From the NCBI GenBank assembly GCA_030531555.1, contig JAUNNI010000014.1, forward strand, positions 1 to 52,629: DNA of 52,629 bases. Reading direction: 5' to 3'. The translations under genes and the position numbers were made by a program. Of the stretch, positions 28,513 through 46,818 are shown piece by piece. Source of the stretch: Eubacteriales bacterium. Its GTDB lineage: Bacteria; Bacillota; Clostridia; Lachnospirales; Lachnospiraceae. Position 1 is the first letter of the stretch, and each line of letters starts with the position of its first letter. Under the pieces are notes generated by a model. The model saw nothing but the letters and a program-made list of their open reading frames with translations, was not told the DNA's origin and searched no databases.

Positions 28513-28540
28513 TTATTAATAGTAATCTTTTTATAAATTA

Positions 28541-28601
28541 ACTCCTTTTTTGACTGACAGGATATATATTTACTTGTCAGCAGAAAAGGAGTATTTTTTT
28601 T
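28541..28601 (+). terminator. Terminator of the sugar ABC operon
   Basis: ACTCCTTTT (28541-28549) pairs with AAAAGGAGT (28584-28592), with an inner CTGACA/TGTCAG stem, followed by A and eight T. Confidence 0.85.
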
Positions 28602-28688
28602 GAAATGTTACTTGACGGGGACGTGGAAAAAATATGATAATAATAATGGTATGCTATGACCTAAATTAGAACTTGGAGAGTATAGATT

Positions 28689-30035
28689 ATGAATGACTTT
28701 ACAACAGGAAGTATTCCGAAAAAGATGCTTCGATTTATGATTCCTGTTCTTGGTGCTTTGATCTTACAGGCCATGTACAGTGCGGTGGATCTTCTGATTG
28801 TCGGGTGGTTTGGCACCAAATCTGGAATTTCTGCGGTATCTACCGGAAGTAATATCGTAAATCTGATTGTATTTACCATTGCCGGATTGTCCATGGGTAT
28901 CACTGTACTTTTGGGAAGATATATCGGTGGAAAAGAAACAGAGCGTTGTGGAAAAGTGATTGGAGGAGCCATATGTTTCTTTGCGGCGGCATCCGTCTTG
29001 ATCGCCGTTTTTTTGATTCTTGGTGCACCTATTTTAACGACACTGATGCAGGCACCAGAAGAGGCTCGTGATCTTACCATTTTATATGTAAGAATTTGTG
29101 GAGGCGGCATCTTTTTTATTATCGCCTATAATGTGATCAGCAGTATTTTCCGTGGATTGGGGGATTCCCAGCTTCCGCTGCTTTTTGTGTTGATTGCCTG
29201 TATTGTCAATATCTTTGGAGACCTTTTATTTGTGGCAGGCTTCCATATGAATGTGGCAGGCGCAGCGATTGCGACAGTTATGGCACAGGCGGTCAGTGTA
29301 ATTTTATCCTTGGTTATCATCCGAAAAAAAGGACTTCCATTTTCTTTTTCCAGAAAAGATATCACTTTTAATACAGAAATTCAAAGGTTTGTTAAAATCG
29401 GAGCACCGATTGCTTTTCAGGAGATTCTTACCAATGTTTCTTTCCTGATTCTTTGTTCCTTCATCAATCGTCTTGGATTAGATGCATCTGCGGGTTACGG
29501 GATTGCCAATAAGATTGTTAGCTTTATTTTGCTGGTTCCTGGTTCTCTCATGCAGTCCATGGCATCTTTTGTGGCACAAAATGTGGGTGCCGGAAAGGAA
29601 AAAAGATCCCGCAAAGCAATGTTTACGGGAATGGCCATTGGTTGTTCTATTGGGGTTGTGATCATGTATGTCAGCTTTTTCCATGGAAGTGTTTTGGCAA
29701 GCATCTTTACGAATAATGACAGAGTTATTCTTCGTGCTGCGGAATATCTGCGAGGATTCTGTCTGGAACCGATTGTAACTTCCATGCTCTTTAGCTTTAT
29801 GGGCTTTTACAATGGACACAGCAAAACCTTCTTTGTTATGCTTCAAGGGCTGGCACAGTCGTTTGTGGTACGTGTACCAATGTCCATCTTTATGAGTTTG
29901 CAGCCAAATGCATCACTTACCATGATTGGACTGGCGGCACCAACAGCAACGGTATTTGGAATTTTAATCAATGCCGCTTATTATTATTACTATACCAAAG
30001 ACTATGAGAAGAAATTCGGGAAACCGACCGTTTAG
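28689..30035 (+). CDS. MATE-family multidrug/sodium antiporter 3
   Basis: A 448-residue MATE transporter. First half: IPKKMLRFMIPVLGALILQA and YSAVDLLIVGWFG; second half: IGAPIAFQEILTNVSFLIL, GYGIANKIVSF and MASFVAQNVGAGK, as in the DinF/NorM-like branch and different from the MepA-like pair at 6216 and 7881. TTGGAGAG precedes the ATG. Its stop codon TAG (30033-30035) directly abuts the minus-strand stop of trmO with no spacer and no terminator between them. Confidence 0.9.
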   Translation: MNDFTTGSIPKKMLRFMIPVLGALILQAMYSAVDLLIVGWFGTKSGISAVSTGSNIVNLIVFTIAGLSMGITVLLGRYIGGKETERCGKVIGGAICFFAAASVLIAVFLILGAPILTTLMQAPEEARDLTILYVRICGGGIFFIIAYNVISSIFRGLGDSQLPLLFVLIACIVNIFGDLLFVAGFHMNVAGAAIATVMAQAVSVILSLVIIRKKGLPFSFSRKDITFNTEIQRFVKIGAPIAFQEILTNVSFLILCSFINRLGLDASAGYGIANKIVSFILLVPGSLMQSMASFVAQNVGAGKEKRSRKAMFTGMAIGCSIGVVIMYVSFFHGSVLASIFTNNDRVILRAAEYLRGFCLEPIVTSMLFSFMGFYNGHSKTFFVMLQGLAQSFVVRVPMSIFMSLQPNASLTMIGLAAPTATVFGILINAAYYYYYTKDYEKKFGKPTV

Positions 30036-30710
30036 TTATCTCTTTTTACAGAGATCTAAGACGATTACGGTTTCTTTATCAATCCGAAAATGGATGTCGT
30101 AACCGCCATATTCCATACCATAGATGCGTTCAGCATCGTCCTGATAGGATGGTCTTGGATCTTGTGCCAGGAGTCTTGAAATCGTTTCCACGAACTCCTT
30201 GGGTTCTTTTGCTTCAAAAGCCCACACGACTTTCAAGGTTTTGGCAAAGGCATCTCCAGCCCAGCCACATAGTGCATCCGGGTGACTGTCAGAAAAACTG
30301 AGATAAGGCTTGATATCATAGATTGGAGTACCGTCGAGCAGATCAGCCCCTTCAATGTGGAGAATTGGGCCTTGTGGACTGTCCCATTCCACTCGCTCCA
30401 GCTTTACACAGGATAAACCGAGGGGATTTGGACGATAGGGTGATCGGGTAGAGAATACGCCTTTTCTAATATTCCCTCCTAAGCGAGGAGGACGAACGGT
30501 TGGGGAAGGTGGAACCACTTTATTTTTGGAAAACTCCCAGATTAGCCAAAGATGGGAGTATTCTTCCACACCTCGGAGATAGTCGGGGTTGCGGTATTCT
30601 TCTGTAAAAATAATCTGTGCGTGGATGCCATCCACCAGACTGCTTTGCCTTGGAATACCGAATTTACTGGAAAAATCATTTTTTATATATGCGATGGGAT
30701 GGATAATCAT
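30036..30710 (-). CDS. trmO: tRNA (N6-threonylcarbamoyladenosine(37)-N6)-methyltransferase TrmO
   Basis: A 224-residue TsaA/YaeB-type protein: SAM-dependent methylation of t6A37 to m6t6A37 in some tRNAs. The N-terminal beta barrel has GIPRQSSLVDG, RPPRLGGNIRKGVFSTRSPYRPNPLGLS and DLLDGTPIYDIKPYL, the family signature. The C-terminal segment (DDAERIYGMEYGGYDIHF) is also typical. AAAGGA lies 7 nt before the ATG. It runs toward the MATE gene and is divergent from the dihydrouridine synthase gene, another tRNA modification enzyme. Confidence 0.9.
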   Translation of the reverse strand: MIIHPIAYIKNDFSSKFGIPRQSSLVDGIHAQIIFTEEYRNPDYLRGVEEYSHLWLIWEFSKNKVVPPSPTVRPPRLGGNIRKGVFSTRSPYRPNPLGLSCVKLERVEWDSPQGPILHIEGADLLDGTPIYDIKPYLSFSDSHPDALCGWAGDAFAKTLKVVWAFEAKEPKEFVETISRLLAQDPRPSYQDDAERIYGMEYGGYDIHFRIDKETVIVLDLCKKR

Positions 30711-30792
30711 AAAGAAATCCTTTCGTAATGTTTTTTAGAGACGAATGTCTCATAGATATCATAACATAATTATTACAGGAGAAACACATTTG

Positions 30793-31734
30793 ATGAAATA
30801 TTATGCTGCACCGATGGAGGGAATTACGGGATATGTGTACCGTAATGCACACCATCATTTTTATCCGGGAATGGATCGATATTATACGCCTTTTCTTACA
30901 CCAAAGGCAAAGAAAGGGATGACTTCCAAAGAGAAAAATGACATCCTGCCAGAACATAATCGGGGAATCACTGTGGTTCCTCAGGTATTGACCAACCAAT
31001 CGGACCATTTTTTAAATATTTCGGAAGCTCTCTATGGTTTTGGCTATGATGAAGTGAATCTAAATCTGGGTTGCCCTTCTGGAACGGTGGTTTCCAAAGG
31101 GAAAGGATGCGGATTTTTGGCAGATCAGGAAGCTTTGGATCGATTTTTTGATCAGGTGATGGAAGGTCTTCATATACGCGGGATTCCTAAGATGAAGGTG
31201 TCAGTGAAAACACGTCTTGGAGTGGATGATCCGGGGGAAATGCCTTCTCTCATGGAGATATACAACCGTTACCCTTTGTCAGAAATTATCATTCATGCCA
31301 GAATTCATAAAGATTTTTATAAGAAACCAGTTAATCTGGAAGCTTTTTCACAGGCTCTTTCCATGAGTGCCCATCCGGTTTGCTATAATGGAGATCTTTT
31401 TTCCAGGGAGAGTCTTGATTCTTTTCACAGGAATTTTCCGGAGGTAGATCGTGTCATGCTTGGCAGGGGAATGATTGCGAACCCACAGCTGCAGAAAGAG
31501 TGTGAGGGGAAGATTGAACATTTTGAATATGATCGATTCTTCCGCTTCCATGAGGAACTTCTACAGGGTTATATTGAAGTGATGTCAGGAGATCGCAATG
31601 TTCTTTTTAAGATGAAAGAATTATGGAGTTATATGGGAGCGCATTTCCCACAGCAAGAAAAAATTATGAAAAAAATAAAGAAATCCAATACCTTAGTGGA
31701 ATATAAATCAGCAGTTCAATCATTATCTTTTTAG
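30793..31734 (+). CDS. tRNA-dihydrouridine synthase family protein
   Basis: A 313-residue FMN-dependent Dus enzyme that reduces uridine to dihydrouridine in tRNA D-loops. TIM-barrel motifs: YYAAPMEGITG at the N terminus, NLNLGCPSGTVVSKGKGCGFL (catalytic C94; a second C106 where many Dus have Ala), VSVKTRLG, IIHARIHKDFY and VMLGRGMIANP. The ATG at 30793 follows CAGGAGA about 10 nt upstream. It lies between trmO (divergent) and the subtilase (same strand). Which D position it modifies is not known. Confidence 0.88.
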   Translation: MKYYAAPMEGITGYVYRNAHHHFYPGMDRYYTPFLTPKAKKGMTSKEKNDILPEHNRGITVVPQVLTNQSDHFLNISEALYGFGYDEVNLNLGCPSGTVVSKGKGCGFLADQEALDRFFDQVMEGLHIRGIPKMKVSVKTRLGVDDPGEMPSLMEIYNRYPLSEIIIHARIHKDFYKKPVNLEAFSQALSMSAHPVCYNGDLFSRESLDSFHRNFPEVDRVMLGRGMIANPQLQKECEGKIEHFEYDRFFRFHEELLQGYIEVMSGDRNVLFKMKELWSYMGAHFPQQEKIMKKIKKSNTLVEYKSAVQSLSF

Positions 31735-31777
31735 CGAAAATGATGGAAAAATGAATTGGAAAGAAAGAAGGTATCTT

Positions 31778-33826
31778 ATGGGATTTTATGATAGAAAGTA
31801 TAGAAAAAGAGGAAATATATTCTTTATTTTTGGTGTATTTTTGTGGATGTTCTTTGGCTCCACTGGGGTTTATGCTGCCTGTGTAAACCATGATGTTAAC
31901 AATGTTAATGAGGCCATTGCAATCATCTCGAAACACTGGGAAGAGGATTATTTTGAGGAGATGATTGTCCAGAAGGGATCAAATTCCATCAGTGTGGATC
32001 ATCATGTCTGCACATTTGCGGATACATTTTCTGCAGATGAGGCGATTGCAAACAAAGCAGTATCTTCTGAGAAAGCTTTGGAGTCTTTCCTGGATCAGGA
32101 AAAAGAGAAAAAAGGAAAGATTTATGAAGTTGAGGAATTGGAGCAGGGAAATTATTCGGTAAAAGCTCCTTTTCAGTCCAAACGTATTGTCATCTTGTCT
32201 GCTGAAGTAGAAGAAGATTTTGGCGCAGCAGAAAAATATATATATCGGCAGGCGGATAAAACGATTCTTCAGTTTGAAACAGAGGAAGAAACACAGATTG
32301 CCTACCAGAAAGCATGCACAAAATATGGAAAAAAACAGTGCTATGTGGATGAAATTATAAAGGTAGATAATTTGGCTCAGGCAGTAAACTGCTATACCTG
32401 GGGCGGAGAAGTCATGGGAATGGATACGCTTCGCACAGAAAGGAATGCCATTGGGAAAGCTCCAGTGACGGTGGCGGTTTTAGATACAGGAATTGATAGC
32501 AGCAATATCATTTTCCAGGGGAAAAAGATTCTGCCAGGCAGCTATAATTTTATGAATGGTGGCTATGACGTAAAGGATACTTACGGTCATGGCACACATG
32601 TTGCAGGAATTATTGCAAACCTGACACCGGACAATGTTCATTTTCTGATACTGAAAGTGACGAACGAAACAGGAGAGAGTACGGCTTTATCTGTGAATCT
32701 GGCATTGGATTATGCCATCGCATGCAACGTGGATGTGATCAATCTTAGTATGGGCTTTCTGGGACAGGATGCGAAATATTATACATTTTTGGATGAAGCG
32801 ATTAACAATGCCTATAAAAAAGGAATACCGGTCTGCGCAGCGGCAGGCAATGATGACACAGGAATCTATGGAAAACGAGTGGAAAATTGTTATCCAGCTT
32901 GTAATTCACAGGCAATCACCGTTTCTTCTATTGACAGTAATAAGAATTTAGCCTGGTACTCATGTAAAGGATCAACCATTGACTTTACAGCCCCGGGGAC
33001 GGATGTAATCAGTGCAGGATTAAATGGAACCTTTGTAAAAGGATCGGGAACCTCCATGGCAGCCCCCCATCTTTCTGCAGCCATGGCTTATATGAAACTT
33101 TTTAATAAGCATCTTTCTGTAGATGGATGTTGCATGGAATTGAAAAAGCGTTGCCAGGATTTGGGAGCGCGTGGCTGGGATATGTCTTATGGTTATGGAT
33201 ATCCAAAATTAGACGGTCTTTTCCAATCAGCAAACACATATGGCGATTGGACGGTATCCCGCAATGTTGCCTCTCCGGTACTCCTCTCCTGTAGCAACAC
33301 AAAAGACGGAGTTAAATTGAGCTGGAGAGCAGTGAAAAATGCCGATGGATATTATATTAACTGTAAAAGAAATGGGGAACTGGCAAGTCGAATCGCCTGT
33401 GTTGGAAAGAATCAGACACAGTTTGTGGACACAGGTGCATCAGATGGGCAGGTGAATATCTACTATATTGAAGCTTTTAGTAATCGTTCTGGAGGGCAAA
33501 CCTCCAGCGGAAGAAGTAACTATATGAGCTTTCTGGCATTAAAACCGTTAAATCTGGCAAAAGTAAAGATTTGGAAGAAAAAGAATCTTGTTGTGACAAT
33601 AAAAGGGGTCCCTATTGGAAGAAACAGAGTTGTTCAGATTCAGTATAGCAAGCAGAAGAACTTCAAGAAAGTAAAAACAAAATCATTTTATTTTACAGGA
33701 AATGTGTATAAGTTCGCTCCAAAAATGAAAGGGACTCTTTATGTTCGAGTTCGCACAAGAGAAAGTCTGAATCGAAAGAAATATTATTCTTTCTGGAGTA
33801 AGGTCAAAAAAGTGAAAGTAAAATAA
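31778..33826 (+). CDS. Secreted subtilisin-family serine protease with C-terminal Fn3-like modules
   Basis: A 682-residue S8 peptidase. An N-terminal basic segment and hydrophobic stretch (IFFIFGVFLWMFFGSTGVYA) form a signal peptide. A propeptide-like region precedes the catalytic domain with the triad D236 (VAVLDTGID), H271 (GHGTHVAG) and S426 (GTSMAAPH), and the oxyanion Asn in AAAGND. From about residue 505 two Fn3-like modules follow (VKLSWRAVKNADGYYI; YVRVRTRESLNRKKYYSFWS), a pattern common in clostridial surface proteins. AAGG sits 6 nt before the ATG at 31778; an ATG at 31751 has no such site. Likely exported and partly wall-associated; the substrate is unknown. Confidence 0.9.
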   Translation: MGFYDRKYRKRGNIFFIFGVFLWMFFGSTGVYAACVNHDVNNVNEAIAIISKHWEEDYFEEMIVQKGSNSISVDHHVCTFADTFSADEAIANKAVSSEKALESFLDQEKEKKGKIYEVEELEQGNYSVKAPFQSKRIVILSAEVEEDFGAAEKYIYRQADKTILQFETEEETQIAYQKACTKYGKKQCYVDEIIKVDNLAQAVNCYTWGGEVMGMDTLRTERNAIGKAPVTVAVLDTGIDSSNIIFQGKKILPGSYNFMNGGYDVKDTYGHGTHVAGIIANLTPDNVHFLILKVTNETGESTALSVNLALDYAIACNVDVINLSMGFLGQDAKYYTFLDEAINNAYKKGIPVCAAAGNDDTGIYGKRVENCYPACNSQAITVSSIDSNKNLAWYSCKGSTIDFTAPGTDVISAGLNGTFVKGSGTSMAAPHLSAAMAYMKLFNKHLSVDGCCMELKKRCQDLGARGWDMSYGYGYPKLDGLFQSANTYGDWTVSRNVASPVLLSCSNTKDGVKLSWRAVKNADGYYINCKRNGELASRIACVGKNQTQFVDTGASDGQVNIYYIEAFSNRSGGQTSSGRSNYMSFLALKPLNLAKVKIWKKKNLVVTIKGVPIGRNRVVQIQYSKQKNFKKVKTKSFYFTGNVYKFAPKMKGTLYVRVRTRESLNRKKYYSFWSKVKKVKVK

Positions 33827-33844
33827 AAATATCCTTTTGCAAGG

Positions 33845-33873
33845 TTTCAAAAAGCTTTCAAATTTGGTATAAT
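33845..33873 (+). promoter_or_regulatory. Extended -10 promoter of the 34-45 kb operon
   Basis: TGGTATAAT is an extended -10 (TATAAT 33868-33873) with a poor -35 (TTTCAA 33845-33850) 17 bp upstream. The predicted start is near 33880, 47 nt before the TTG start codon at 33927. No other equally good promoter is visible before valS. Confidence 0.55.
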
Positions 33874-33926
33874 AAAATTTATTGTAATAATGAACGAATA
33901 AATAATGATAAAGTTGGTGGATAGAT

Positions 33927-36900
33927 TTGAAAGATAATATCGATTTTATGAACGAAAAAATAAATAACAGTAAGACACCGATCGTTCATCTTTCCACGTT
34001 GGGGCTTGATCTTAGCGTGGAAGAAGGAGAAATCCATAGGGGTAGTTTGACTTTAGAGAGTGAAAACGGGCTTCCATTCCGCGGAAAAGTGTACTCTACG
34101 AGTGATAAGATGCAGTTGGATGTGGAAAGTTTTGAAGGGCAGCATCATGAGTTTCACTATACCTTTGATGGCAGTATGGCCATTGAAGGAGAGAACTATT
34201 CTGGTGATTTTGTATTCATTACTAATGGTGGAGAATTCAATCTGCCATATATGGTGTCCATCGAAGCGAAAACGATCAGGACAGCCAACGGTTCTATCCG
34301 TTCTATGGTGGATTTCCAAAAACTCTATCAGCAGAGTAAAGCACAGGCCATGGAGATTTTCTTCCATCCGAACTTCTCTGAAGTTATGTTGAAAGATGAG
34401 CCGGAAAAACGCATGCTTTACCATGGACTGATGAAGAGCCGTAATAAAAATCTGATCATGGAGGAATTTCTTACAGCTGCTGGTTATAAAGAAGTCACAA
34501 TCTTGGATCTTGAAGAGAAAGGGATCGTGTTAGACTCTGGAAAAAATGAAGCAGAGATTGTGATTTCCATGAACACAGATGGTTATGTGGAGGGGAAAAT
34601 TACCTGTCAGAAGAATCAGGTGGGAATCTCTCATGAAAAATTTACCAGTAACGATTTTGTAGATGGCAAGCTGGTGGTCCGTATCTCCAAAAACCAGAAT
34701 TATACCATGGGCAGTGATGTGATTTGCATCGATAATGTGAGACAGCATTTTGAGATTCCTGTGGAATGGTGGGGAACTCTTCCAGAAGTTACTGATGCAA
34801 AAGAACAGGCACTTCAGATTAAACGATATCGTGCAGAGCTGATGCATAATTATCTTTATTTCCGTACCGGTGGCATCCGTTTTGAAGATTTTGCGGATAG
34901 CTCACGTCAGATTTTAGATCAGCTTGTCTATCGCAACAAAGAGGTGATTTGGAAGCTTTTCCTTATGCATATTTCTTTGATGGAACAGAAACAGGAAGAA
35001 GCAGAAGAGATTCTGACTTCTTTAGAAGAACGCAAAAAAAATGAAACGTTTTCTACCTTGGAAGAGCATTATTTCTTATATTTAAAATCTATGTTCTACG
35101 GAACTCCGGAAGCAATTTCTGAGGCAGTGATTGCCATTCGTTCCTTCTATGAGAACAGTGAATACAAAGACCTGGCTCTGTGGATGCTTATTTACATCGA
35201 CAGAGACTATGTTTCTAATAAAAAACTGCAATATGATACCATTAAGATGCTCTTTGAGCAGGGATGCAACAACAGCTTACTCTATTATGAGGCATGTTCT
35301 CTTCTCAATGAGAATCCTACCTTTATGGATGAAACAGGACCATTTGAGATTAGTATCTTCCGCTGGGGCGTTCGTTATGGTGTCATTTCCCTCTCGTTAG
35401 CTTACCAGTTTGCGCGTCTTGCACTAAAAGCGAAGTATTACCAGAAATCTGTTTTCCATATTGCACAGAAACTCTATCAGATTAAGCAGGATGAGAGATT
35501 TCTTCAGGTAATTTGCTCTCTCTTGATCAAAGGGAACCGTATTGGTAAGGAATACCATGAATACTTCCGTGCAGCAGTGGAAGCAAACCTTAAAATTATC
35601 GGATTAAATGAATTCTTTATCCGAAGTGCAGACTTTTCTCTTTATGAGAAACTGCCACAGAGAGTTCTCATTTATTTTACTTATAGCAACACTTTAGATT
35701 CGACAGAAAAAGCATACTTATATACCAATATTCTCAAAAATAAGGAATCCTACGAAGAAGTCTTTGGGGCATATTACTCTAAGATGATCCCGTTTGTGGA
35801 AGAGCAGCTTCTGAAGGGGCGTATGAATGAGCAGCTTGCTTATCTTTATTCTTATTTCCAGAAAGAGATTTTGGAGAAAAAAGAAAATGCGAAGGCTGTC
35901 TGCGATATTCTTTTCTATCAGAAGATTCGCTGTGGTAATCCTCGTATGATTGGAGTATATGTGGCATGTCCAGAATTGGGCACAGAAAGATATTATCCAT
36001 TGTCCGGTGGAAATGCTTATGTGGAATACTACAATGAGCGTTCTCAGATTTATTTTGTTGACAGTAGTGAGCAGCGTTATGTGAAAGATATCGAGTGCTA
36101 CTTCACTCCATTCCTTACATTGAAACAGTTCCCAGATGAATGGGTTCGTCGCAATCAGGGGAATAAAAAGGTACTTCTCATGCTTTCTGCCCGCATTGAT
36201 GAACGCATGGCCGAAGATGAAGTGAAAATTGCCCAGAAAGTGGTCAATGCGAATGAGTATAAGCCTTGGATTCGTGTATATGCTTTAGAACAGCTTCTGA
36301 CTTACTACAGTAATCATCAGAAGAAAGATGATCTGGATCAGTGGTTAGACCGCGTAAATTACGAAGAAATCGATAGGAAGTTCCGCAAACGTCTCATCGA
36401 TTATTATATGGAAGTAGGACGTTTGGAATCTGCTTTTTATGGCGTGGAGAAATACGGTGTCCACATCATGGGCGCTGCGAAGCGCTTAAAACTTGCGAAT
36501 TTTGGAATTGAATTCTTCGGATGGAGAAAACAGCCAACGGTTCTGGCTTTGGCGAGGTCTGCTTTCAATCAGAAAAAATACAACAAAGACAGTTTATCCT
36601 ATCTGATTTCCTATATGGAAGGGGAGATGGAAGAACTTTATACATTGTGGGAACGCAGTCGCAAATTTGAAGTGAAAACAACTGATTTGGAACGCAAGAT
36701 CTTAAGTCAGTGTATCTTCACAGACAATGACACTGAGAGAGTGTTCCCGGTATTCTCATCCTTATTAAATGAATACCTTCAGATGAAGGAGATGGATGAT
36801 GAATTCGAAGATAAAGAAACCGAGAAGGTCATTGGACAATATCTGGAATTTGCTTCTTTAAAGGAACTTCATGGCTCTATGAAGCTGACAGAAGAGATGC

Positions 36901-37466
36901 ACATGGCCATCGGTAATGAGATTTTAAAAGGTCGTATTGATGAACGTCATACAAAGATTCATTTCCTTTATTATTTTGCTGGGAAGCCTTTATGGCGTGA
37001 TTTGATTAAAGAGGCAGCGGCCTATATCATCGAGGGATTCCTCAAAGAGAGATTTTACCTGCCTGTTTACCATTCCTATGAAGATATTGTATTTTTACCA
37101 ATCGCTTATCGCGAATTTACCTTCTTAACTTACCATGGTGGTATCAATCAGGATGTCCGTATCTATTATGAGATTGAAGGGCAGAAAGATTATTGGAGAG
37201 AGAAGAAGCTTGATGAAGTTATGCCGGGAATGTATGTGTGCCATATGCATTTTTACCATAATGATCATGTGAACTATCGTTTGGAAGAGAGCGGAGAAAA
37301 AGTGCAGGATTCCAATCAGATTCAGTTTGAGACTTTCCGTTACGACAATGACGATAGTCGATTCTTCACCTTAAATCATATGACATGGGAAGAAAATGGA
37401 ATGGAGAAAATGAAGTCCTATCTCATGCAAAGTTACTTTACTGACCACTTTATGAAACTGCTTTAA
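33927..37466 (+). CDS. Giant uncharacterised protein, DUF5717-like, Ig-like and helical-repeat architecture
   Basis: A 1179-residue cytoplasmic-looking protein with no signal peptide. Residues about 15-110 form an Ig-like beta domain (LDLSVEEGEIHRGSLTLES, GGEFNLPYMVSIE), which I associate with DUF5717 proteins of clostridia. A second beta domain follows at about 190-285. Residues about 290-960 are dense amphipathic helices like TPR/HEAT arrays, interrupted by a beta insert near 670-730, and the C terminus (about 1040-1150) is again beta-rich. A TTG start has GGTGG 6 nt upstream; an in-frame ATG at 33948 is the alternative. It heads an operon with an Hsp70-like protein 15 bp downstream. Function unknown; a scaffold or client-binding role is only a guess. 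Confidence 0.75.
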   Translation: MKDNIDFMNEKINNSKTPIVHLSTLGLDLSVEEGEIHRGSLTLESENGLPFRGKVYSTSDKMQLDVESFEGQHHEFHYTFDGSMAIEGENYSGDFVFITNGGEFNLPYMVSIEAKTIRTANGSIRSMVDFQKLYQQSKAQAMEIFFHPNFSEVMLKDEPEKRMLYHGLMKSRNKNLIMEEFLTAAGYKEVTILDLEEKGIVLDSGKNEAEIVISMNTDGYVEGKITCQKNQVGISHEKFTSNDFVDGKLVVRISKNQNYTMGSDVICIDNVRQHFEIPVEWWGTLPEVTDAKEQALQIKRYRAELMHNYLYFRTGGIRFEDFADSSRQILDQLVYRNKEVIWKLFLMHISLMEQKQEEAEEILTSLEERKKNETFSTLEEHYFLYLKSMFYGTPEAISEAVIAIRSFYENSEYKDLALWMLIYIDRDYVSNKKLQYDTIKMLFEQGCNNSLLYYEACSLLNENPTFMDETGPFEISIFRWGVRYGVISLSLAYQFARLALKAKYYQKSVFHIAQKLYQIKQDERFLQVICSLLIKGNRIGKEYHEYFRAAVEANLKIIGLNEFFIRSADFSLYEKLPQRVLIYFTYSNTLDSTEKAYLYTNILKNKESYEEVFGAYYSKMIPFVEEQLLKGRMNEQLAYLYSYFQKEILEKKENAKAVCDILFYQKIRCGNPRMIGVYVACPELGTERYYPLSGGNAYVEYYNERSQIYFVDSSEQRYVKDIECYFTPFLTLKQFPDEWVRRNQGNKKVLLMLSARIDERMAEDEVKIAQKVVNANEYKPWIRVYALEQLLTYYSNHQKKDDLDQWLDRVNYEEIDRKFRKRLIDYYMEVGRLESAFYGVEKYGVHIMGAAKRLKLANFGIEFFGWRKQPTVLALARSAFNQKKYNKDSLSYLISYMEGEMEELYTLWERSRKFEVKTTDLERKILSQCIFTDNDTERVFPVFSSLLNEYLQMKEMDDEFEDKETEKVIGQYLEFASLKELHGSMKLTEEMHMAIGNEILKGRIDERHTKIHFLYYFAGKPLWRDLIKEAAAYIIEGFLKERFYLPVYHSYEDIVFLPIAYREFTFLTYHGGINQDVRIYYEIEGQKDYWREKKLDEVMPGMYVCHMHFYHNDHVNYRLEESGEKVQDSNQIQFETFRYDNDDSRFFTLNHMTWEENGMEKMKSYLMQSYFTDHFMKLL

Positions 37467-37481
37467 TATGGAGGAAACACA

Positions 37482-38585
37482 ATGCAAGAGTTAAATACCA
37501 GAAAATTTGTGGGAATCGATATCAGTGAAGAAGCGGTTCAGCTTAGTATTTACGATGAAGCAACAGAGGAGATGGTGGAAGAATTCTTTCCCCTTCAGGA
37601 AAAAGAGAGAGACGATTACATCAGCAGCGGGATAGAATATATTCATAAATATTTTGAGTGCAATGAGTTATCCTGGGAGGATTATTCCTCTGTTCATTTT
37701 TCCATGAAGGATATTTCAGCAGGGAGCAGGGAAACATTAAAAAACGTACTTCCAGAGGAATTTGTGGAACGTTTTGGTGTCAATATCATCGGTCGTTTTC
37801 GTGCCTTTGTTGAGTATGTATTCCATCAGGAGAGAGTGGTCTGGGACCGTAATACCATGCTTTTAGAGTATCAGGATAACATTCTTCGCTATATTTTGGT
37901 GGAATCCATTTATCGATCCAAACAAAAAGCTTACCGTGCGGTTACACAGGAAGTCAATCTTTCTGAACATGGCATTGTCGAAGGCAGTGATACTTTGGAT
38001 CAGGATTTCTGCAAGATGATCAAACAGTTCCTGTTAAAGAATCCAACCCACATCATTTTCCTCACAGGAAATGGATTCGAGGGAAACTGGATGAAAAGAA
38101 CTTTAAACTGCTTATGTTCCGGTCGTAGAGTTTTCCTTGGACAGAATATTTACGCCAACGGAGCAAGCCTTCTTGGAATCCGTCAGACCTCTCTCCTTGA
38201 GGATGGCATGATTCTTATGCAGGGACCAGAGATGGTGCAGCATGCTATCGGAATCGTGGCAGCGGAGAACGGAAGACAGCAGTATATTCCAATTACAGCC
38301 ATTGGAAAAGAATGGTTTAATACAAAAGGCAGTATCGATATTATTTTAGATAAAAGTCATAAGGTGGATTTCTTTTACCGAAACCACCGCGACAATGAGA
38401 TGGAGATTGCCTCCTGCGAGGTGAAGGACCTGCCAAAACGTCCGCCAAAAACTACTCGTATGCATGTGGAGGTCACATTTACATCCCGTTTGGAGGGAAT
38501 AATTTTCCTCACCGACATGGGATTTGGTACCATGTATCCAAAAACTGAGAAAGTAACGGTATTTCCATTTAAATTGATTTCATAA
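37482..38585 (+). CDS. Hsp70/actin-fold (ASKHA) protein of unknown function
   Basis: A 367-residue protein that reads as a divergent ASKHA ATPase plus a small beta domain. The phosphate-1-like strand-turn-strand is FVGIDISEEAVQLSIYD (about 9-25), and an adenosine-like motif is IIFLTGNGFEG followed by VFLGQNIYANGASLLG (about 190-230), as in Hsp70. The canonical phosphate-2 DLGGGT is not seen; MLLEYQDNILRYILVE stands where it might be, so hydrolysis is doubtful. The C-terminal part (about 285-365) resembles an Hsp70 substrate-binding beta-sandwich (RMHVEVTFTSRLEGIIFLTD). GGAGG precedes the ATG. It may act with the giant protein upstream; no function is known to me. Confidence 0.72.
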   Translation: MQELNTRKFVGIDISEEAVQLSIYDEATEEMVEEFFPLQEKERDDYISSGIEYIHKYFECNELSWEDYSSVHFSMKDISAGSRETLKNVLPEEFVERFGVNIIGRFRAFVEYVFHQERVVWDRNTMLLEYQDNILRYILVESIYRSKQKAYRAVTQEVNLSEHGIVEGSDTLDQDFCKMIKQFLLKNPTHIIFLTGNGFEGNWMKRTLNCLCSGRRVFLGQNIYANGASLLGIRQTSLLEDGMILMQGPEMVQHAIGIVAAENGRQQYIPITAIGKEWFNTKGSIDIILDKSHKVDFFYRNHRDNEMEIASCEVKDLPKRPPKTTRMHVEVTFTSRLEGIIFLTDMGFGTMYPKTEKVTVFPFKLIS

Positions 38586-38597
38586 CAGGAGGAAGCC

Positions 38598-39491
38598 ATG
38601 AGAGAAACGATTGTCTGTATTGGACAGATTGGAAAAACTGCATATCGTTTTCCACAAACAGAGGTTTCCATCACCTCTTATGAAGAATTATGCTGCTATT
38701 TAAGCCAGCATCTCATTTGCTATCTTTACACGCTTCCGGATGAGGATCTTCTCGTCTATATTAAGGAAGAACTGGGATTGGATAAATTATATCGACAGCT
38801 TGTCAAGCTGCAGTCCCCGGAAAGAGACCAAATGAAGTATTTTGCCACATTGTTCCGCGAGGGAAATTATTATTCGGAAGATGAGATTCGTAAGATCCTC
38901 GACCAGTATCGAACCTTAAAGAATGAACCTTATCCTCTTCAATGCAAACGAATCGGAGATATGCTGTTAGGTTATGGCAAAGCGACCATGGCGATTCAGT
39001 ATTATGATGAAGGGCTGAAGCGCCTGGAGGATCAGGAGGATGAGATGGCAGGCAGCTTATACCATAATAAAGGTATCGCTCACGCCAGACTTTTCCGTTT
39101 TGAAGATGCCAAGATTGATTTCATCAAGGCATATCAGAACAATGGGGATGAAAATTCACTTTTCCATTACTATGGACTTCTTGTGTTCCATGAGGGGGAC
39201 CTTGCCAAAGCAGCCAAAGAAATCCGTGAGAGTTTCCATGTGTCCGATATCGTCATGGATACTTTTGAGGAGAAGCTTGCCGGCATGATGGAAGAGCAGC
39301 AGTATACAGAAGACGCAGCCAAATATCGTAAGATCGTATATTTGAATGTAAGAAATCGTAACGAAGATGCACAGCATTATTTTGAGTCCATGGTGAAAGA
39401 TCAGCAAAACAGTTTCCGCAAAGAACTGGAAGCCCACGAAAAATGGGTAGTGACAAATGTGCCTCTTCGGTATAGTATAGATAAGAAATAA
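38598..39491 (+). CDS. TPR-like helical protein of the same cassette
   Basis: A 297-residue soluble, largely alpha-helical protein. The first 60 residues are mixed ([20 protein letters not shown]), then helices with TPR-like periodicity at about 115-230 ([60 protein letters not shown]). The C terminus is charged. CAGGAGG lies 8 nt before the ATG; the gene starts 12 bp after the Hsp70-like gene and ends 19 bp before valS. Probably a partner or adaptor in a complex with the two proteins upstream. I know no characterised relative. Confidence 0.72.
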
Positions 39492-39510
39492 TCAGGAAGG
39501 AATGAAAACA

Positions 39511-42150
39511 ATGCCTACAGAGATGAACAAAACCTACAATCCTGCAGAAATTGAGGAAAGACTTTACCAGAAATGGTTAGATCAGAAATATTTTCACGCA
39601 GAAGTAGATCGCAGCAAAAAACCATTTACTATCGTTATGCCACCACCAAACATTACAGGACAGCTCCACATGGGACATGCCCTTGATAATACATTACAGG
39701 ATATTTTAATCCGTTTTAAAAGAATGCAGGGATACAATGCTTTATGGCAGCCAGGAACAGACCATGCGTCCATCGCTACAGAAGTTAAAGTTATCGATGC
39801 CCTCAAAAAAGAAGGAAAATCCAAAGAAGAATTAGGCCGTGAAGGATTCTTAAAACGCACATGGGAATGGAGAGAAGAGTACGGCGGACGTATTGTAAGT
39901 CAGCTGAAAAAACTTGGCTCTTCCGCAGACTGGGATCGTGAAAGATTCACATTGGACGAAGGCTGCTCCAAAGCGGTAGAAGAGGTATTCATCAAATTAT
40001 ATGAAAAAGGATACATTTACCGTGGATCCCGTATCATCAACTGGTGTCCGGTTTGTCAGACATCCATCTCTGATGCTGAGGTAGAATACGAAGATCAGGC
40101 AGGACATTTCTGGCATATCAACTACCCAGTTGTTGGATCTGATGAGGTAGTAGAAATCGCTACAACACGTCCGGAAACAATGCTTGGTGATACTGCAGTA
40201 GCAGTTCATCCAGATGATGAAAGATACAAACATCTTGTTGGAAAAACACTGATGCTTCCAATCGTGAACCGTGAGATTCCGGTTGTAGCAGATACTTATG
40301 TAGATAAAGAATTCGGTACAGGCTGTGTTAAGATCACACCAGCTCATGACCCTAACGACTTTGAAGTTGGAAAACGTCACAACCTTCCAGAAATCAATGT
40401 AATGAACGATGATGGTACCATCAATGCAAACGGCGGAAAATACGAAGGAATGGACCGCTATGAAGCAAGAAAAGCCATCGTAGCTCAGTTAGAAGAAGAA
40501 GGCTGGCTTGTAGCAGTAAAACCACATAACCATAACGTTGGTACTCATGACCGCTGCCATACAACCGTAGAGCCTATGGTAAAGAAACAGTGGTTTGTTG
40601 CTATGGAAGAATTAGCAAAACCTGCCATCGAAGCAATCAAAACAGGCGAGCTTCGTTTCGTACCAGAACATTTTGACCGTACATACCTTCATTGGTTGGA
40701 GAACATCCGCGACTGGTGTATCAGCCGTCAGCTCTGGTGGGGACATCGTATTCCAGCTTACTACTGTGATGAATGTGGTGAGATTGTTGTTGGAAGAGAA
40801 ACACCTGCAGTTTGTCCAAAATGTGGCTGCACACATCTGACTCAGGATGAAGATACCCTTGATACATGGTTCAGCTCCGCTTTATGGCCATTCTCCACAC
40901 TCGGTTGGCCAGACAAGACAGAAGACCTCGATTACTTCTATCCAACTAATGTACTTGTAACCGGTTATGACATCATTTTCTTCTGGGTAATCCGTATGGT
41001 ATTCTCCGGTTATGAACACACTGGCAAGTCCCCATTCCAGGATGTATTGATCCATGGCCTTGTACGTGATGCTCAGGGACGTAAGATGAGTAAATCCCTT
41101 GGAAATGGTATTGATCCACTTGAAGTAATCAACCAGTACGGTGCAGACGCACTTCGTCTTACTCTCGTAACAGGAAATGCTCCTGGTAACGATATGCGTT
41201 TCTCCGATGAAAAGATTCTTACAAGCCGCAATTTTGCCAACAAAGTATGGAACGCTTCCCGTTTCATGCTCATGAATATTGAAAAAGCAGATTTAACTGG
41301 TGTTAGCATGGAAGACCTTACTCCAGCGGATAAATGGATCCTCTCCAAAGCCAACACACTGGTAAAAGAAGTAACAAAGAATATGGAAAACTACGACCTT
41401 GGTGTTGCAGTATCCAAATTATATGACTTTATCTGGGAAGAATTCTGTGACTGGTATATCGAAATGGTTAAGCCACGTCTCTGGAATGACGAAGATGAGA
41501 CAAAAGCAGCTGCACTTTTCACATTGAAAAATGTACTGATTATCGCTTTAAAACTTCTTCATCCATACATGCCATTCATCACAGAAGAAATCTTCATGAA
41601 CCTTCAGGACGAAGAAGAATCCATCATGATTTCCAAATGGCCTGAATATAAGGAAGAATTCAACTTTGCAGAAGAAGAAAATGAAGTAGAAGTAATTAAA
41701 AACGCAGTACGTAACATTCGTAACATGCGTGCAGATATGAACGTTCCACCAAGCAAAAAAGCTACCGTATTCGTTGTATCTGAAAAACAGGAAATCCTTG
41801 ATATCTTCAACCGTTCCAAAGTATTCTTTGCAACATTAGGTTATGCAAGCGAAGTAATCACACAGACAGATAAAACAGGTATCGCAGAGGATGCTGTTTC
41901 CACTGTAATTCCAGATGCTGTTCTTTATCTTCCATTTGCAGAGCTTGTTGATGTGGAAAAAGAAATCGCTCGTCTTGAAAAAGAAGCAGCTCGTCTTGCT
42001 GGCGAAATCAAACGTGCTAACGGTATGCTCCACAATGAAAAATTCACAAGCAAAGCACCAGCAGCTAAGGTTGAAGCAGAACGTGAAAAACTTGCAAAAT
42101 ACACAGCAATGGCAGAACAGGTAAATGCTCGCCTTGCTCAGCTTAAATAA
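39511..42150 (+). CDS. valS: Valyl-tRNA synthetase
   Basis: Class I aminoacyl-tRNA synthetase of 879 residues. HIGH variant HMGH at 53-56, KMSKS at 525-529, the editing (CP1) domain with [13 protein letters not shown], zinc-type Cys motifs (CDECGE, CPKCGC), and a C-terminal coiled coil (about 810-879) that grips tRNA, as in bacterial ValRS. The ATG at 39511 has GGAAGG about 10 nt before; an ATG at 39502 is too close to the site. It begins 19 bp after the cassette gene, so no T-box leader fits here; its expression must come from the upstream promoter or an unseen one. Confidence 0.98.
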
Positions 42151-42191
42151 GAAAAATCCATCGGATTTTCGGAAAAATGAGGTGCCACATC

Positions 42192-43487
42192 ATGACATAT
42201 GAGGAAATGTTAGAAGAATTGAATCACATACCGATGTTTGGAAAGAGTGGTGGCCTTGAACATCTTAAAAAATATCTGGCATTATTGAATCATCCGGAGA
42301 GAAATCTTCCGGTGATTCATGTTGCCGGTACTAATGGCAAAGGCTCCGTAAGTGCATTTATGGAGTCTGTTTTGCGCGAAGCAGGATATAAGACAGGACT
42401 CTTCACTTCCCCGCATCTCAACCGAATCAATGAGCGTTTTCGCATTAATTTTGAAGAATGTGAGGATGCACTTCTGGTAAAAGCATGGGAAGAAGTGAAA
42501 AAAGTGATAGGGCAGAGAGAGGAACATGGTCTTCTCATGCCGACTTATTTTGAAATTATGTTCCTCATGGGAATGCTTGTTTTCACATGGGAAAAACCAG
42601 ATTATTGTATAGTAGAAACCGGATTGGGAGGAAGGCTGGATGCGACGGTACTCACAGAGCCCATCCTTTGTGTGATTACATCCATTAGCCTTGACCACAC
42701 TGCTTTGCTGGGAGATACGATTCCAGCCATTGCAGAGGAGAAGGCAGGAATTATTAAAGAAGGAATTCCAGTGGTTTATCTCGATGAAAAAAACGGTGCT
42801 TCTGAGCCAATTGTAAGGATTGCGAAAGAGAAAAAAGCAGAAGTGTTAACGGTTTCTTACGGAGATGTTACGTTTTTAGAAAATGTACGGAATGCAATTG
42901 ATTTTTCACTACAGAATCGTTATTATAGACTTAAGTATGCACATATTCCGTCCAGTGCTCCATACCAGATGGTGAACGCTGCCATGGCCATGGTTGCAGT
43001 TCATAAACTTCTTCCGGAACTTGCGGATGAGACCATGAGAGCAGGGATTGCACAGATGCACTGGCCAGGCAGAATGGAGGAAATCGAACCCCATGTTTAT
43101 GTGGATGGGGCCCATAATCCTGGAGCCATTGAACAGATTTGTCGGATGATGAGAGAGAAAAAGAACTCCTGGAGTCTTTTATTTGCAGTATGTGCAGATA
43201 AAGATTACAGAAGCATGGTTACCATGCTCTCAGAGATTCCATGGACGAATATATACATTACAAAAATAAAGACAACAAGAGGTGCCGGCGTGGATACGGT
43301 TGCTGATACATTTCGTATGCATTCCAAGACACCAATTCATATATATCAGACATCCAAGGAGGCGTATGATGCTGCAGTTTCTGCTCTTAATGAAGGAGAA
43401 GAACTCCTATGTCTGGGATCCCTCTATCTTGTTGGGGAGTTAAAGGAACATATCGTAAGGAAGAAAGAAAGCGAGGATGAAAAATGA
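42192..43487 (+). CDS. folC: Folylpolyglutamate synthase / dihydrofolate synthase
   Basis: Mur-ligase-type enzyme, 431 residues, that adds glutamate to folates (and may make dihydrofolate from dihydropteroate). ATP loop HVAGTNGKGSVSAF, then GLFTSPHLNRINERF, VETGLGGRLDATV, ISLDHTALLGDTI and the C-terminal VDGAHNPGAIE. GAGGTG lies about 9 nt before the ATG at 42192; the frame from 42177 adds five residues with no better site. It follows valS by 41 bp, a common clostridial order. Its TGA overlaps the ATG of a 45-residue gene. Confidence 0.95.
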   Translation: MTYEEMLEELNHIPMFGKSGGLEHLKKYLALLNHPERNLPVIHVAGTNGKGSVSAFMESVLREAGYKTGLFTSPHLNRINERFRINFEECEDALLVKAWEEVKKVIGQREEHGLLMPTYFEIMFLMGMLVFTWEKPDYCIVETGLGGRLDATVLTEPILCVITSISLDHTALLGDTIPAIAEEKAGIIKEGIPVVYLDEKNGASEPIVRIAKEKKAEVLTVSYGDVTFLENVRNAIDFSLQNRYYRLKYAHIPSSAPYQMVNAAMAMVAVHKLLPELADETMRAGIAQMHWPGRMEEIEPHVYVDGAHNPGAIEQICRMMREKKNSWSLLFAVCADKDYRSMVTMLSEIPWTNIYITKIKTTRGAGVDTVADTFRMHSKTPIHIYQTSKEAYDAAVSALNEGEELLCLGSLYLVGELKEHIVRKKESEDEK

Positions 43488-43621
43488 TCGATTTCACATT
43501 AGAATTAAAGAAATTTAAACCAGCTGTAGGCGTAGAAGATTTATTTGATAACGATATCAAAGATATCACAGATCTCGTGGAAGAAATGGTCAACAATATG
43601 CAGGAAAAGCAGGACAAATAA
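43484..43621 (+). CDS. Small acidic protein of unknown function, translationally coupled to folC
   Basis: A 45-codon gene: MIDFTLELKKFKPAVGVEDL then a helix ending in VNNMQEKQDK. Its ATG overlaps the folC TGA (ATGA), and GCGAGGA lies 7 nt upstream, so it is probably coupled to folC translation. It is acidic and predicted helical. I do not recognise it; the tight placement between two conserved genes supports it being real. Confidence 0.6.
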   Translation: MIDFTLELKKFKPAVGVEDLFDNDIKDITDLVEEMVNNMQEKQDK

Positions 43622-43656
43622 GAAGAAAAAAACCATAGAATTTCAGGAGGTAGAAC

Positions 43657-45138
43657 ATGAAATGTGTGAAATGCGGACGCAACGCGGGAAATGATGGTTT
43701 CTGTACTGCATGCGGCTTTGATAATAAACATATCCATAAAGCATATAACACTGCCAACTATTACTACAATATTGGCTTAGAAAAGGCAAATATGCGTGAT
43801 TTAAGCGGAGCAGCCGCTTATCTTGAAAAAGCATTGAATTACAACAAGTCTCACAAAGATGCCAGAAATCTTCTTGGACTTGTATATTATGAAATGGGGG
43901 AAGCTGGAAAAGCATACATCCAGTGGAAAATCAGTTCCCAGCTCGTAACAATGGAAGAGAATTTAGCAAACCTTTACATCAAAGAAATGGAAGAACATCC
44001 TGCAGTCATTGAGACGATCAATGAAGCAGCGAAAAAGTTCAATCTTGCATTATCTTATGCAAAACAGGGCAGTGATGACCTTGCTATGATCCAGATTAAA
44101 AAGGTTTTAAGTCTCACACCAAACTTTGTAAGAGGGCATCTTCTTTTTGCATTGCTTCATATGCGTGCAGGCGATAATGCAGCAGCAAAAACAGATCTTT
44201 ACAATGTATTGGCAATTGATAATTATAATACAACAGCACGTAGCTTCCTCGCAGAAATGGGAGAAAAGCCACAGAACGCACCTGAATTAGTATCCGAAGA
44301 AACTTTAAAACCAGACAATGACAATCTGAAAAATGTTCGCCCTGTGGATCATTATGAAGATCCAAACAAGGAACAGTGGAAACAGTTCGTTTATATGTTG
44401 ATTGGTCTTGCCATGGGTGTGATTGCCATGTTCGTATTGGTAATTCCAAGTGTTAAGGCCGGAGTAAGTGTTGATTACAAAAATCTGCAGAAAGAATACA
44501 AGCAGACGGTAGGAGAAAAAGACGGTGAAATCTCCCAGTTACAGGAAGACAAATCTGCTCTTGAAAAAGATAACAAAGCATTGAACAAACGTCTCAAAGT
44601 ATACGAAGGCTCTGATGGTGAGGACAGCATGTATGACAGCCTCCTCAAAGCAAACCAGGCTTTTGGTAAAAATGATTATGTAGAATGCTCCAAATATCTT
44701 GCGAAGATTACAAAGAGTGATCTTCCATCTAAGACCTCAAAAGATCTTTATTATTCTATGAAAGAAACTGCATATTCCAGTGCGGCAACTCAGCTGTATG
44801 AAAGCGGTATGGAGCAGTTAAAGAAATACAAATACGAAGAAGCGCTGAAAGATTTCAAGAACGCCTATAAATATAGTGATAACGATTACGAGACACTTTA
44901 TGAGCTTGCATGGTGCTACAAGAAAACTGGAAAAGAAGAGAAAGCAACTCAGTATTTCTATGAGATTATCAACAATTCCGGTAATCATGAACTTGAAATC
45001 AAGGCTGCCAACTATGGTCTTGATATGCAGATTGCACCAGCCAAAGAAGCTGCTGCTGCTTACGCACAGAAAAATGGTAAGCCAGTTGCAACAGATACTA
45101 CAGAGGCAACTGCCACTACAGAACAGACACAACAATAG
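43657..45138 (+). CDS. Zinc-ribbon, TPR and single-pass membrane protein
   Basis: A 493-residue membrane protein. An N-terminal zinc ribbon has C3-x2-C6 and C16-x2-C19. TPR-like helices cover about 30-200 (SGAAAYLEKALNYNKSHKDA, LAMIQIKKVLSLTPNFVRGH). One transmembrane helix follows (about 244-268), then a coiled coil (about 275-315) and a second TPR set (about 325-445: EALKDFKNAYKYSDNDYETL), with a Thr-rich tail. This places one TPR set inside and one outside. AGGAGG precedes the ATG. Last gene of the run before the terminator at 45184. Function unknown; probable assembly platform. Confidence 0.78.
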   Translation: MKCVKCGRNAGNDGFCTACGFDNKHIHKAYNTANYYYNIGLEKANMRDLSGAAAYLEKALNYNKSHKDARNLLGLVYYEMGEAGKAYIQWKISSQLVTMEENLANLYIKEMEEHPAVIETINEAAKKFNLALSYAKQGSDDLAMIQIKKVLSLTPNFVRGHLLFALLHMRAGDNAAAKTDLYNVLAIDNYNTTARSFLAEMGEKPQNAPELVSEETLKPDNDNLKNVRPVDHYEDPNKEQWKQFVYMLIGLAMGVIAMFVLVIPSVKAGVSVDYKNLQKEYKQTVGEKDGEISQLQEDKSALEKDNKALNKRLKVYEGSDGEDSMYDSLLKANQAFGKNDYVECSKYLAKITKSDLPSKTSKDLYYSMKETAYSSAATQLYESGMEQLKKYKYEEALKDFKNAYKYSDNDYETLYELAWCYKKTGKEEKATQYFYEIINNSGNHELEIKAANYGLDMQIAPAKEAAAAYAQKNGKPVATDTTEATATTEQTQQ

Positions 45139-45183
45139 GAAATTCACAAAGGGCTATGTGACTTAAGATTGATGAATAATTTT

Positions 45184-45207
45184 AAGGGCTTGGCCCTTTT
45201 TCCTTTT
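45184..45207 (+). terminator. Terminator of the 34-45 kb operon
   Basis: AAGGGC (45184-45189) and GCCCTT (45193-45198) form a 6-bp stem with a 3-nt loop, followed by TTTTTCCTTTTT. A small CATGC-GCAA-GCATG hairpin (45209-45222) follows directly. Confidence 0.75.
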
Positions 45208-45233
45208 TCATGCGCAAGCATGAAGTGCATTTC

Positions 45234-45263
45234 TTAGCAAGAACGATGAGGTGTTCTTGCTAA
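45234..45263 (+). repeat. CAAGAA/TTCTTG-family hairpin upstream of the gene at 45295
   Basis: TTAGCAAGAAC (45234-45244) and GTTCTTGCTAA (45253-45263) pair perfectly over 11 bp around an 8-nt loop, ending 17 nt before the AAGGAG ribosome site. It shares the CAAGAA...TTCTTG core with hairpins at 11450 and 22538. Confidence 0.65.
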
Positions 45264-45294
45264 AGATAGAGAAAATGATAAAGGAGAAGACCAC

Positions 45295-46582: not shown

Positions 46583-46591
46583 GAATAAGGT

Positions 46592-46637
46592 GTTTTCCTT
46601 TGCTTTTCATAATAAACGAAGGAAAACGTCTTTTTTT
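46592..46637 (+). terminator. truA terminator
   Basis: GTTTTCCTTTG (46592-46602) pairs with CGAAGGAAAAC (46617-46627) with one G.U pair, followed shortly by T7 (46631-46637). Confidence 0.85.
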
Positions 46638-46785: not shown

Positions 46786-46818
46786 GGCATTTTTATGATG
46801 AAAAACAGGAGGTTTATG

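Follow-up and report, generated by a model that had tools for sequence, protein, structure and literature searches.

In this study, we analyzed a 52,629-nucleotide stretch of DNA from a bacterium of the family Lachnospiraceae (contig JAUNNI010000014.1; hereafter, the window) and found that three of its genes, encoding a DUF5717 protein, a DUF5716 protein, and a TPR protein, are probably the colinear remnant of an Hsp70/GrpE chaperone operon, which would have lost its motors and kept a dead Hsp70, a scaffold, and a TPR adaptor. The descent of DUF5716 from Hsp70, the loss of its ATPase motifs, the absence of the partner genes from the family genomes examined, the synteny, and the constraint on the cassette are all evident from sequence comparisons. 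Most likely, the cassette acts today as a scaffold or holdase that derives from a chaperone and needs no ATP, and it may serve DnaK.

The three genes are separated by gaps of 15 bp (DUF5717/DUF5716) and 12 bp (DUF5716/TPR), with 10 bp between the TPR gene and the start of valS, and these coordinates agree with the close spacing reported in a preliminary description of this DNA made from its letters alone. The assignment of the first gene to DUF5717 in that description also holds, as both Pfam domains of the protein, DUF5717_N (E 3.9e-210; 700.4 bits) and the C-terminal DUF5717 domain (E 3.1e-40; 138.7 bits), score above their cut-offs of 25 bits (PF18984/PF18983). The helical repeats proposed for this protein find support in its relatives: of 15 homologues of the helical part, 4 match TPR_19 (best 9e-7). 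The proposed Ig-like part is not confirmed, its sole Ig match being C1-set at E 0.11 (residues 1102-1165), below the Pfam cut-off. The second protein is a member of PF18980 (DUF5716_C, E 4.9e-72; 242.8 bits against a cut-off of 34.7), a family that the preliminary description does not name. The third matches TPR_2 at E 7.5e-5, and its 23.0 bits fall short of the curated TPR cut-off of 27; the family alignment reveals a conserved N-terminal region of ~90 residues in this protein. A scan of the three proteins against NCBIfam returned no model at its cut-off.

Relatives of these genes in other families of the order lie within a longer operon, in which the order is DUF5717-N, DUF5717-C, Hsp70-A, a GrpE-domain protein, DUF5716, Hsp70-B, Hsp70-C with a vWA domain, TPR, and sometimes CCTM, a coiled-coil protein that by inspection has two membrane-type helices (the names Hsp70-A, Hsp70-B, Hsp70-C, and CCTM were coined in this analysis). 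DUF5717 is mostly represented there by two neighboring genes of ~385-434 aa (N) and ~885-961 aa (helical part and C-terminal part) and in some cases by one gene. The corresponding parts of the window-family protein align with the separate genes at hhalign E values of 1.5e-43 (N part, alignment columns 8-298) and 3.4e-83 (C part, columns 305-1183). The window-family profiles likewise match long-operon DUF5716 (3.3e-52) and the long-operon TPR gene (1.2e-29, with a family TPR set that includes two unrelated longer TPR proteins of 481 aa), and two long-operon TPR homologues exceed the TPR cut-off, with 89.1 and 56.1 bits. The other products measure ~558 aa (Hsp70-A), 279-645 aa (GrpE-domain protein), 412-565 aa (DUF5716), ~545 aa (Hsp70-B), ~692 aa (Hsp70-C, the vWA domain being C-terminal), and ~385 aa (TPR). 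In two loci of one family (L116/L127), Pfam recognizes HSP70 in Hsp70-A (6.2e-78), Hsp70-B (1.6e-63), and Hsp70-C (4.5e-96, along with VWA at 1.9e-10), as well as GrpE (7.1e-11), DUF5716_C (2.2e-33), and TPR_2 (5e-26). Hsp70-A follows DUF5717 in all 18 other-family loci counted, and DUF5716 occurs with Hsp70-B in 14 of the 18, the other four stretches ending earlier; two further loci, L117 (3.5 kb) and L123 (short form), were excluded from the original 20. The long operon suggests a machine of Hsp70s and GrpE, one Hsp70 being fused to vWA, that has gone unreported. The GrpE-domain protein of this operon (L107-L139) is a coiled coil with the GrpE domain at its end, and an additional GrpE copy lies beside another Hsp70, away from the operon, at G418:C37 and G413:C117. 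The gene at the TPR position in G520 (308 aa) matches neither the TPR model nor Pfam.

Judged by its sequence, DUF5716 is a descendant of Hsp70 without the ATPase motifs. The window-family profile aligned with Hsp70-B over its whole length (4.9e-26 over 407 columns) and also matched Hsp70-A (7e-10), HscC-like proteins (1.4e-8), DnaK (1.5e-7), and Hsp70-C (1.8e-6 over 122 columns), while control profiles of unrelated operon and flank proteins reached 0.04 or worse against DUF5716. The window protein alone gave no HSP70 Pfam match up to E 1, and nothing significant emerged from a PDB sequence search (best E 1.6 for this protein, none for the DUF5716 alignment, and 0.31 for the DUF5717 alignment). 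A long-operon protein (L116:2539-4110) bridges the two families, matching HSP70 at 1.8e-14 beside DUF5716_C at 2.2e-33 and, in the PDB, DnaK chains at up to 5.7e-11. The motifs DxGTTNS and DxGGGT, which we take to be the phosphate-1 and phosphate-2 motifs of Hsp70, were each present in 0 of 52 DUF5716 sequences (37 from the window's family and 15 others; one is a truncated copy of another). The corresponding counts were 19 of 19 for both motifs in the Hsp70-A set (18 Hsp70-A proteins and one Hsp70-C fragment, from L122), 11 and 13 of 13 for Hsp70-B, and 12 and 11 of 12 for Hsp70-C. More than 60% of family DUF5716 proteins have no counterpart of Hsp70-B residues 234-267 and 273-307, presumably lobe IIB by DnaK numbering, and the window protein additionally lacks the stretch matching Hsp70-B residues 44-99, presumably close to lobe IB. 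Like canonical Hsp70/DnaK, to which its profile is similar along the whole length, DUF5716 retains the GID start, an adenosine-type loop, and a predicted C-terminal beta-rich region; unlike canonical Hsp70/DnaK, it lacks the two ATPase motifs and parts of the nucleotide-binding domain. The retained loop and the lack of DLGGGT had been noted in the preliminary description, and the alignment confirms both. No ATP cycle would be expected from such a protein, and ATP binding looks unlikely.

The long and short forms also share their surroundings. Upstream, at a distance of two genes or less, a divergent aminotransferase gene is present in 10 of 20 family loci, 9 of 18 other-family loci, and 0 of 16 close relatives of the window. 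Downstream, valS is at most three genes away in 4 of 20 family loci, and it comes directly after the TPR gene in 14 of 16 close relatives; for L063 and L064 the automatic valS test failed, with a second TPR gene labeled TPR, yet valS follows TPR. Of 13 other-family genomes extended downstream, four (G513, G520, G403, and G400) have valS past CCTM. The first three of these read aminotransferase, long operon, and valS, then folC and a TPR/zinc-ribbon gene, as after valS in the window; no gene lies between valS and folC in G403, and one or two genes do so in G520 and G513. Family locus L101 reads aminotransferase, short cassette, and valS. The short cassette thus occupies the position that the long operon has elsewhere, and the order of the genes is preserved.

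Trees and a gene census bear on the direction of change. In the Hsp70 tree (68 rows), family DUF5716 sequences form one group, which lies next to the DUF5716 of long-operon locus L107 (support 100/99), and the remaining long-operon DUF5716 sequences fall outside; the DUF5717 tree (33 rows) also pairs L107 with the family (100/100). G400 (L107/L134), the long-operon genome nearest the family in these trees, has Hsp70-C in pieces and a short TPR frame, reflecting sequencing error or early decay. The census covered 43 genomes: 14 with the long operon, 21 from the window's family, and 8 order members without DUF5717. Hsp70-A, B, and C and a second (operon) GrpE are present in 14 of 14 long-operon genomes (with Hsp70-C in pieces in G400), a score that is partly by construction because the genomes were picked for an operon already seen. 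In the 21 family genomes, no Hsp70-A, B, or C was recognized among the matches listed, which extend down to ~E 1e-13, far below the operon Hsp70 scores, and no second GrpE was found above the cut-off, G244 having one below it (9.7e-4). The HSP70 matches listed in these genomes are DnaK, HscC-like proteins in G268, G347, and G244, which group with HscC-like proteins in the tree, weak matches to frames of 329-372 aa, and two long frames (in G351 and G383, described below). The 8 order members without DUF5717 had neither recognizable operon Hsp70s nor a second GrpE above the cut-off. Because the ATPase motifs are already gone in long-operon DUF5716, the simplest course is that Hsp70-B was duplicated, one copy decayed, and the active Hsp70s were lost later, and the census agrees with this course. 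We infer that the most likely origin of DUF5716 is duplication of the active Hsp70-B, its neighbor in the long operon, and that the ATPase motifs would have disappeared from it at a stage when three active Hsp70s still accompanied it. Later, the window's family would have lost these active Hsp70s together with the dedicated GrpE and would have kept the dead Hsp70, the DUF5717 scaffold (one gene here, two in most other families), and the TPR adaptor.

The reduced cassette is widespread. Among 200 Lachnospiraceae genomes, one per genus, profiles of DUF5717 matched 196, those of DUF5716 matched 195, and a custom profile of the TPR gene matched 195, one of them weakly. A single match was found in 193 of 195 genomes for DUF5716 and in 177 of 196 for DUF5717; the remaining genomes have two to five rows per DUF, which may be pieces of one gene. 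Four genomes that are 60-70% complete (G218, G326, G344, and G397) miss one or two cassette genes. In the order sample, DUF5717 was found in 94 of 196 genomes (93 above the cut-off), 22 from the window's own family and 72 from other families. The class sample gave 12 of 245 with the long-operon DUF5717 profile, nine from the same family and three weak, partial matches from other orders (best 2.0e-12), and the phylum sample gave 2 of 199 for each DUF, both Lachnospiraceae. The 17 named DUF5716 relatives are labeled Lachnospiraceae, Eubacterium, Anaerobutyricum, Eubacteriaceae, Eubacteriales, or Clostridiales. The cassette is near-universal in one family and, as far as sampled and apart from the three weak matches, confined to one order.

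Gene order within the cassette is also preserved. The matches listed include 90 DUF5716 rows, 77 of them with a DUF5717 row, 84 with a TPR row, and 72 with both; among these, DUF5716 directly follows DUF5717 in 76 of 77 genomes, the TPR gene directly follows DUF5716 in 84 of 84, and the whole series is intact in 71 of 72, the exception (G207) having DUF5717 on another contig. The three genes are consecutive in all 20 family loci and in 13 of the 16 loci from close relatives of the window; of the latter, L078 starts past DUF5717, and in L072 and L073 a crude open reading frame (ORF) caller took an antisense ORF instead of the TPR gene. This neighborhood survey upholds the co-occurrence implied by the preliminary description, whose view of a chaperone-like or scaffold complex, built from an Hsp70-derived, a TPR-like helical, and a TPR protein, stands as the best reading of this conserved cassette. 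What that description overlooked was the larger Hsp70/GrpE operon as the probable source, the near-universality in one family, and the confinement to one order as far as sampled. Among close relatives, the ratio of nonsynonymous to synonymous substitutions (dN/dS) is 0.027-0.155 for the three genes, alongside 0.019-0.052 for valS and 0.049-0.212 for folC; eight gene pairs with the window were saturated in dS and gave no ratio. These values indicate purifying selection, and we rejected decay of the cassette on that ground. Together with homologues in ~98% of sampled family genera, they place the cassette beyond a chance arrangement.

Several observations weigh against, or stand beside, a remnant of an Hsp70 operon. 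An HSP70 Pfam match was found in one of three long-operon DUF5716 proteins scanned, leaving two without, one of which (L122) matches DUF5716_C only below the cut-off. Three family genomes of higher completeness also lack the full cassette: all three genes are missing from G289 (98% complete), G296 (99%) carries DUF5717 alone, and G227 (93%) lacks both DUFs and shows just a weak TPR match (2.2e-5). A genome from another family of the order (G555, locus L123) carries the short DUF5717-DUF5716-TPR form, so the reduction either occurred outside the window's family as well or predates that family; G404, from the same family as G555, has no DUF5717. Long HSP70-matching frames occur in family genomes G351 (1095 aa, 323.6 bits) and G383 (953 aa, 82.9 bits), and the trees are midpoint-rooted, with long branches flagged by the program. 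Structure prediction adds two further points. In a fold comparison of the AlphaFold model of the window DUF5716 protein (mean predicted local distance difference test [pLDDT] score 66.6; predicted template modeling score 0.60), residues 2-242 matched proteins of the ASKHA fold, and the top matches listed are sugar and ROK kinases, FtsA, and PilM; no Hsp70 chain is among the 50 listed, a listing that does not exclude one. From residue 231, the C-terminal region has block pLDDT values of 29-67 and is barely covered by the fold comparison. The divergent Hsp70/actin fold of the preliminary description is borne out for residues 2-242, and the loss of the ATPase motifs makes the protein more than divergent.

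These matches bear on a different explanation, in which DUF5716 would connect a membrane coiled-coil partner with the TPR protein and the solenoid scaffold as an adaptor of the actin or FtsA/PilM kind, in an envelope or cytoskeletal role rather than as a chaperone. We consider this improbable. A fold like that of the kinases, FtsA, or PilM could fit a nucleotide domain stripped of its extra lobes and does not by itself indicate Hsp70. The strand-rich region of the model has low confidence and the profile alignment spans it, so the likeness of the DUF5716 C terminus to the Hsp70 substrate domain rests on that alignment.

The fourth gene, CCTM, hints at a membrane site for the cassette in the lineages that carry it. 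Of 120 family genera, 52 gave a strong match to CCTM and one more a weak match; the gene lies directly downstream of the TPR gene in 43 of 44 family genomes compared, 44 of the 52 strong rows having been used. It follows TPR in family loci L087, L088, L096, L100, L105, and L106 and in 5 of 13 long-operon loci extended downstream, and it was not found in the window's genome. Four long-operon CCTM homologues gave no Pfam match above the cut-off.

How might a dead Hsp70 be of use? We propose that the three proteins would form one complex with DUF5717 as the scaffold. In it, the C-terminal beta domain of DUF5716 would be a clamp that needs no ATP cycle to hold its client or partner, and docking of clients or partners would fall to the TPR protein. 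The complex would sit at the membrane where CCTM is present. In long-operon species, loading or release of clients would be the task of the active Hsp70s, with the GrpE protein resetting them; once these motors were lost, the clamp would work alone, which we prefer, or DnaK would act as the motor. In the former case, the complex would be a nucleotide-independent holdase or assembly scaffold, not a folding motor. The full course of events, in which the family lost three Hsp70s and their exchange factor and the remnant became an ATP-independent complex kept by nearly every member, in many with a membrane anchor, is put forward more tentatively, at somewhat under even odds.

With DnaK as the motor, the cassette would be a targeting platform for the housekeeping DnaK/GrpE, and DnaK would supply the ATP cycle that formerly came from Hsp70-A, B, and C. 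All 21 family genomes examined encode a DnaK-type Hsp70 and a single canonical GrpE. Hsp70s commonly have TPR proteins as partners, and Hop, CHIP, and TOM70 appear, along with many generic or designed TPRs, among the PDB matches of the TPR family. However, there is no J domain in the cassette proteins or the long-operon examples scanned, DUF5716 lacks the stretch matching lobe IIB, where GrpE binds DnaK, and its profiles fit DnaK less well than Hsp70-B; on balance, we regard the platform as unlikely. Lachnospiraceae are common in the gut, and the cassette occurs in almost all of the genera sampled; it is also a candidate family marker. Since both stages can be found, active Hsp70s beside the dead one and the dead one alone, the role of the pseudo-Hsp70 is directly testable.

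Table 1. Features of the window and regions of the cassette proteins
Feature	Position	Strand	Basis or remark
DUF5717 gene	33927-37466	+	ORF of 1179 aa, TTG start; Pfam
DUF5717 protein, N part	residues ~1-300		beta-rich by inspection
DUF5717 protein, middle	residues ~300-860		TPR-like, helical
DUF5717 protein, C-terminal DUF5717 domain	residues 872-1173
DUF5716 gene	37482-38585	+	ORF of 367 aa; Pfam PF18980
DUF5716 protein, reduced nucleotide-binding domain	residues 1-~240
DUF5716 protein, strand-rich region	residues ~254-364
TPR gene	38598-39491	+	ORF of 297 aa; Pfam TPR_2 below cut-off
Possible sigma-70 promoter	33846-33873	+	TG before TATAAT; 53 bp upstream of DUF5717 start
valS	39502-42150	+	Pfam; downstream neighbor, context and not cassette
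folC-like Mur ligase	42177-43487	+	Pfam Mur ligase domains; context neighbor
TPR/zinc-ribbon gene	43657-45138		TPR protein with Cys-rich N terminus; follows folC
S8 subtilase	31751-33826		immediately upstream of DUF5717
ORF preceding truA	45295-45861		188 aa

The candidate promoter (Table 1) is the best of 23 sites, with 10 of 12 matches, and is weak, as shuffled sequences gave 24.3 sites. Rfam gave no RNA element at the gathering score in positions 28000-47000. The subtilase gene occupies the same place in 10 of 11 close relatives with upstream sequence, and no subtilase is labeled in the 20 family loci. The ORF preceding truA had no Pfam match up to E 1.

Four phage records matched the cassette, and the two inspected, MT835486.1 (L160) and MT835719.1 (L161), hold DUF5717-DUF5716-TPR in a row. 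We read these two as host chromosome because they carry the cassette, one of them with valS pieces as well, and both are titled 'UNVERIFIED'. A mobile element was rejected, as no plasmid match was found.

Pfam describes DUF5716 and DUF5717 as of 'unknown function', and their connection with an Hsp70/GrpE operon that lost its motors is new here. DUF5717 is absent from the literature searched, and DUF5716 appears in one paper that is on an unrelated topic by its title (PMC8115291). No description of such a system was listed in the literature on Hsp70/GrpE/vWA operons, Lachnospiraceae signature proteins, or degenerate Hsp70s, a search that subscription journals lay largely outside. CnuD of the CoCoNuT systems is described as an Hsp70-like protein with HEAT repeats and degenerate nucleotide motifs (PMC11090510), and the cassette resembles it, by that description, in tying a degenerate Hsp70-like unit to helical repeats. 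Unlike CoCoNuT, the cassette and long-operon proteins scanned include no McrB/McrC-type match above the cut-off.

A further explanation, and a very improbable one, would be a conflict system, anti-phage or similar, of the type that combines GTPases with Hsp70, GrpE, beta-sandwich, and TPR proteins. Defense genes are usually patchy in their spread, whereas the cassette is near-universal in the family, sits in a conserved locus, and has no plasmid match. PADLOC returned partial matches only, all to Hsp70, GrpE-domain, and TPR proteins of the long operon; the window's DUF5717 and DUF5716 had no match, and we rejected a defense system on this basis. What speaks for the idea is the GAP1-N2 theme, which comprises HSP70, GrpE, in a subset a second HSP70 lacking the peptide-binding domain, and FNIII fused to DnaJ or TPRs (PMC7159879). 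With its HSP70, GrpE, extra HSP70-like protein, and TPRs, this is the published arrangement closest to the long operon among the sources consulted. GAP1-N2 itself was found in 0 of 18 genomes (4 from the family and 14 with the long operon; a control genome was positive), and the cassette and long-operon examples scanned had no GTPase match above the cut-off. Unlike the GAP1-N2 systems, the long operon adds a vWA-fused Hsp70 and DUF5717, and its probable remnant, the cassette, is kept by nearly all of one family.

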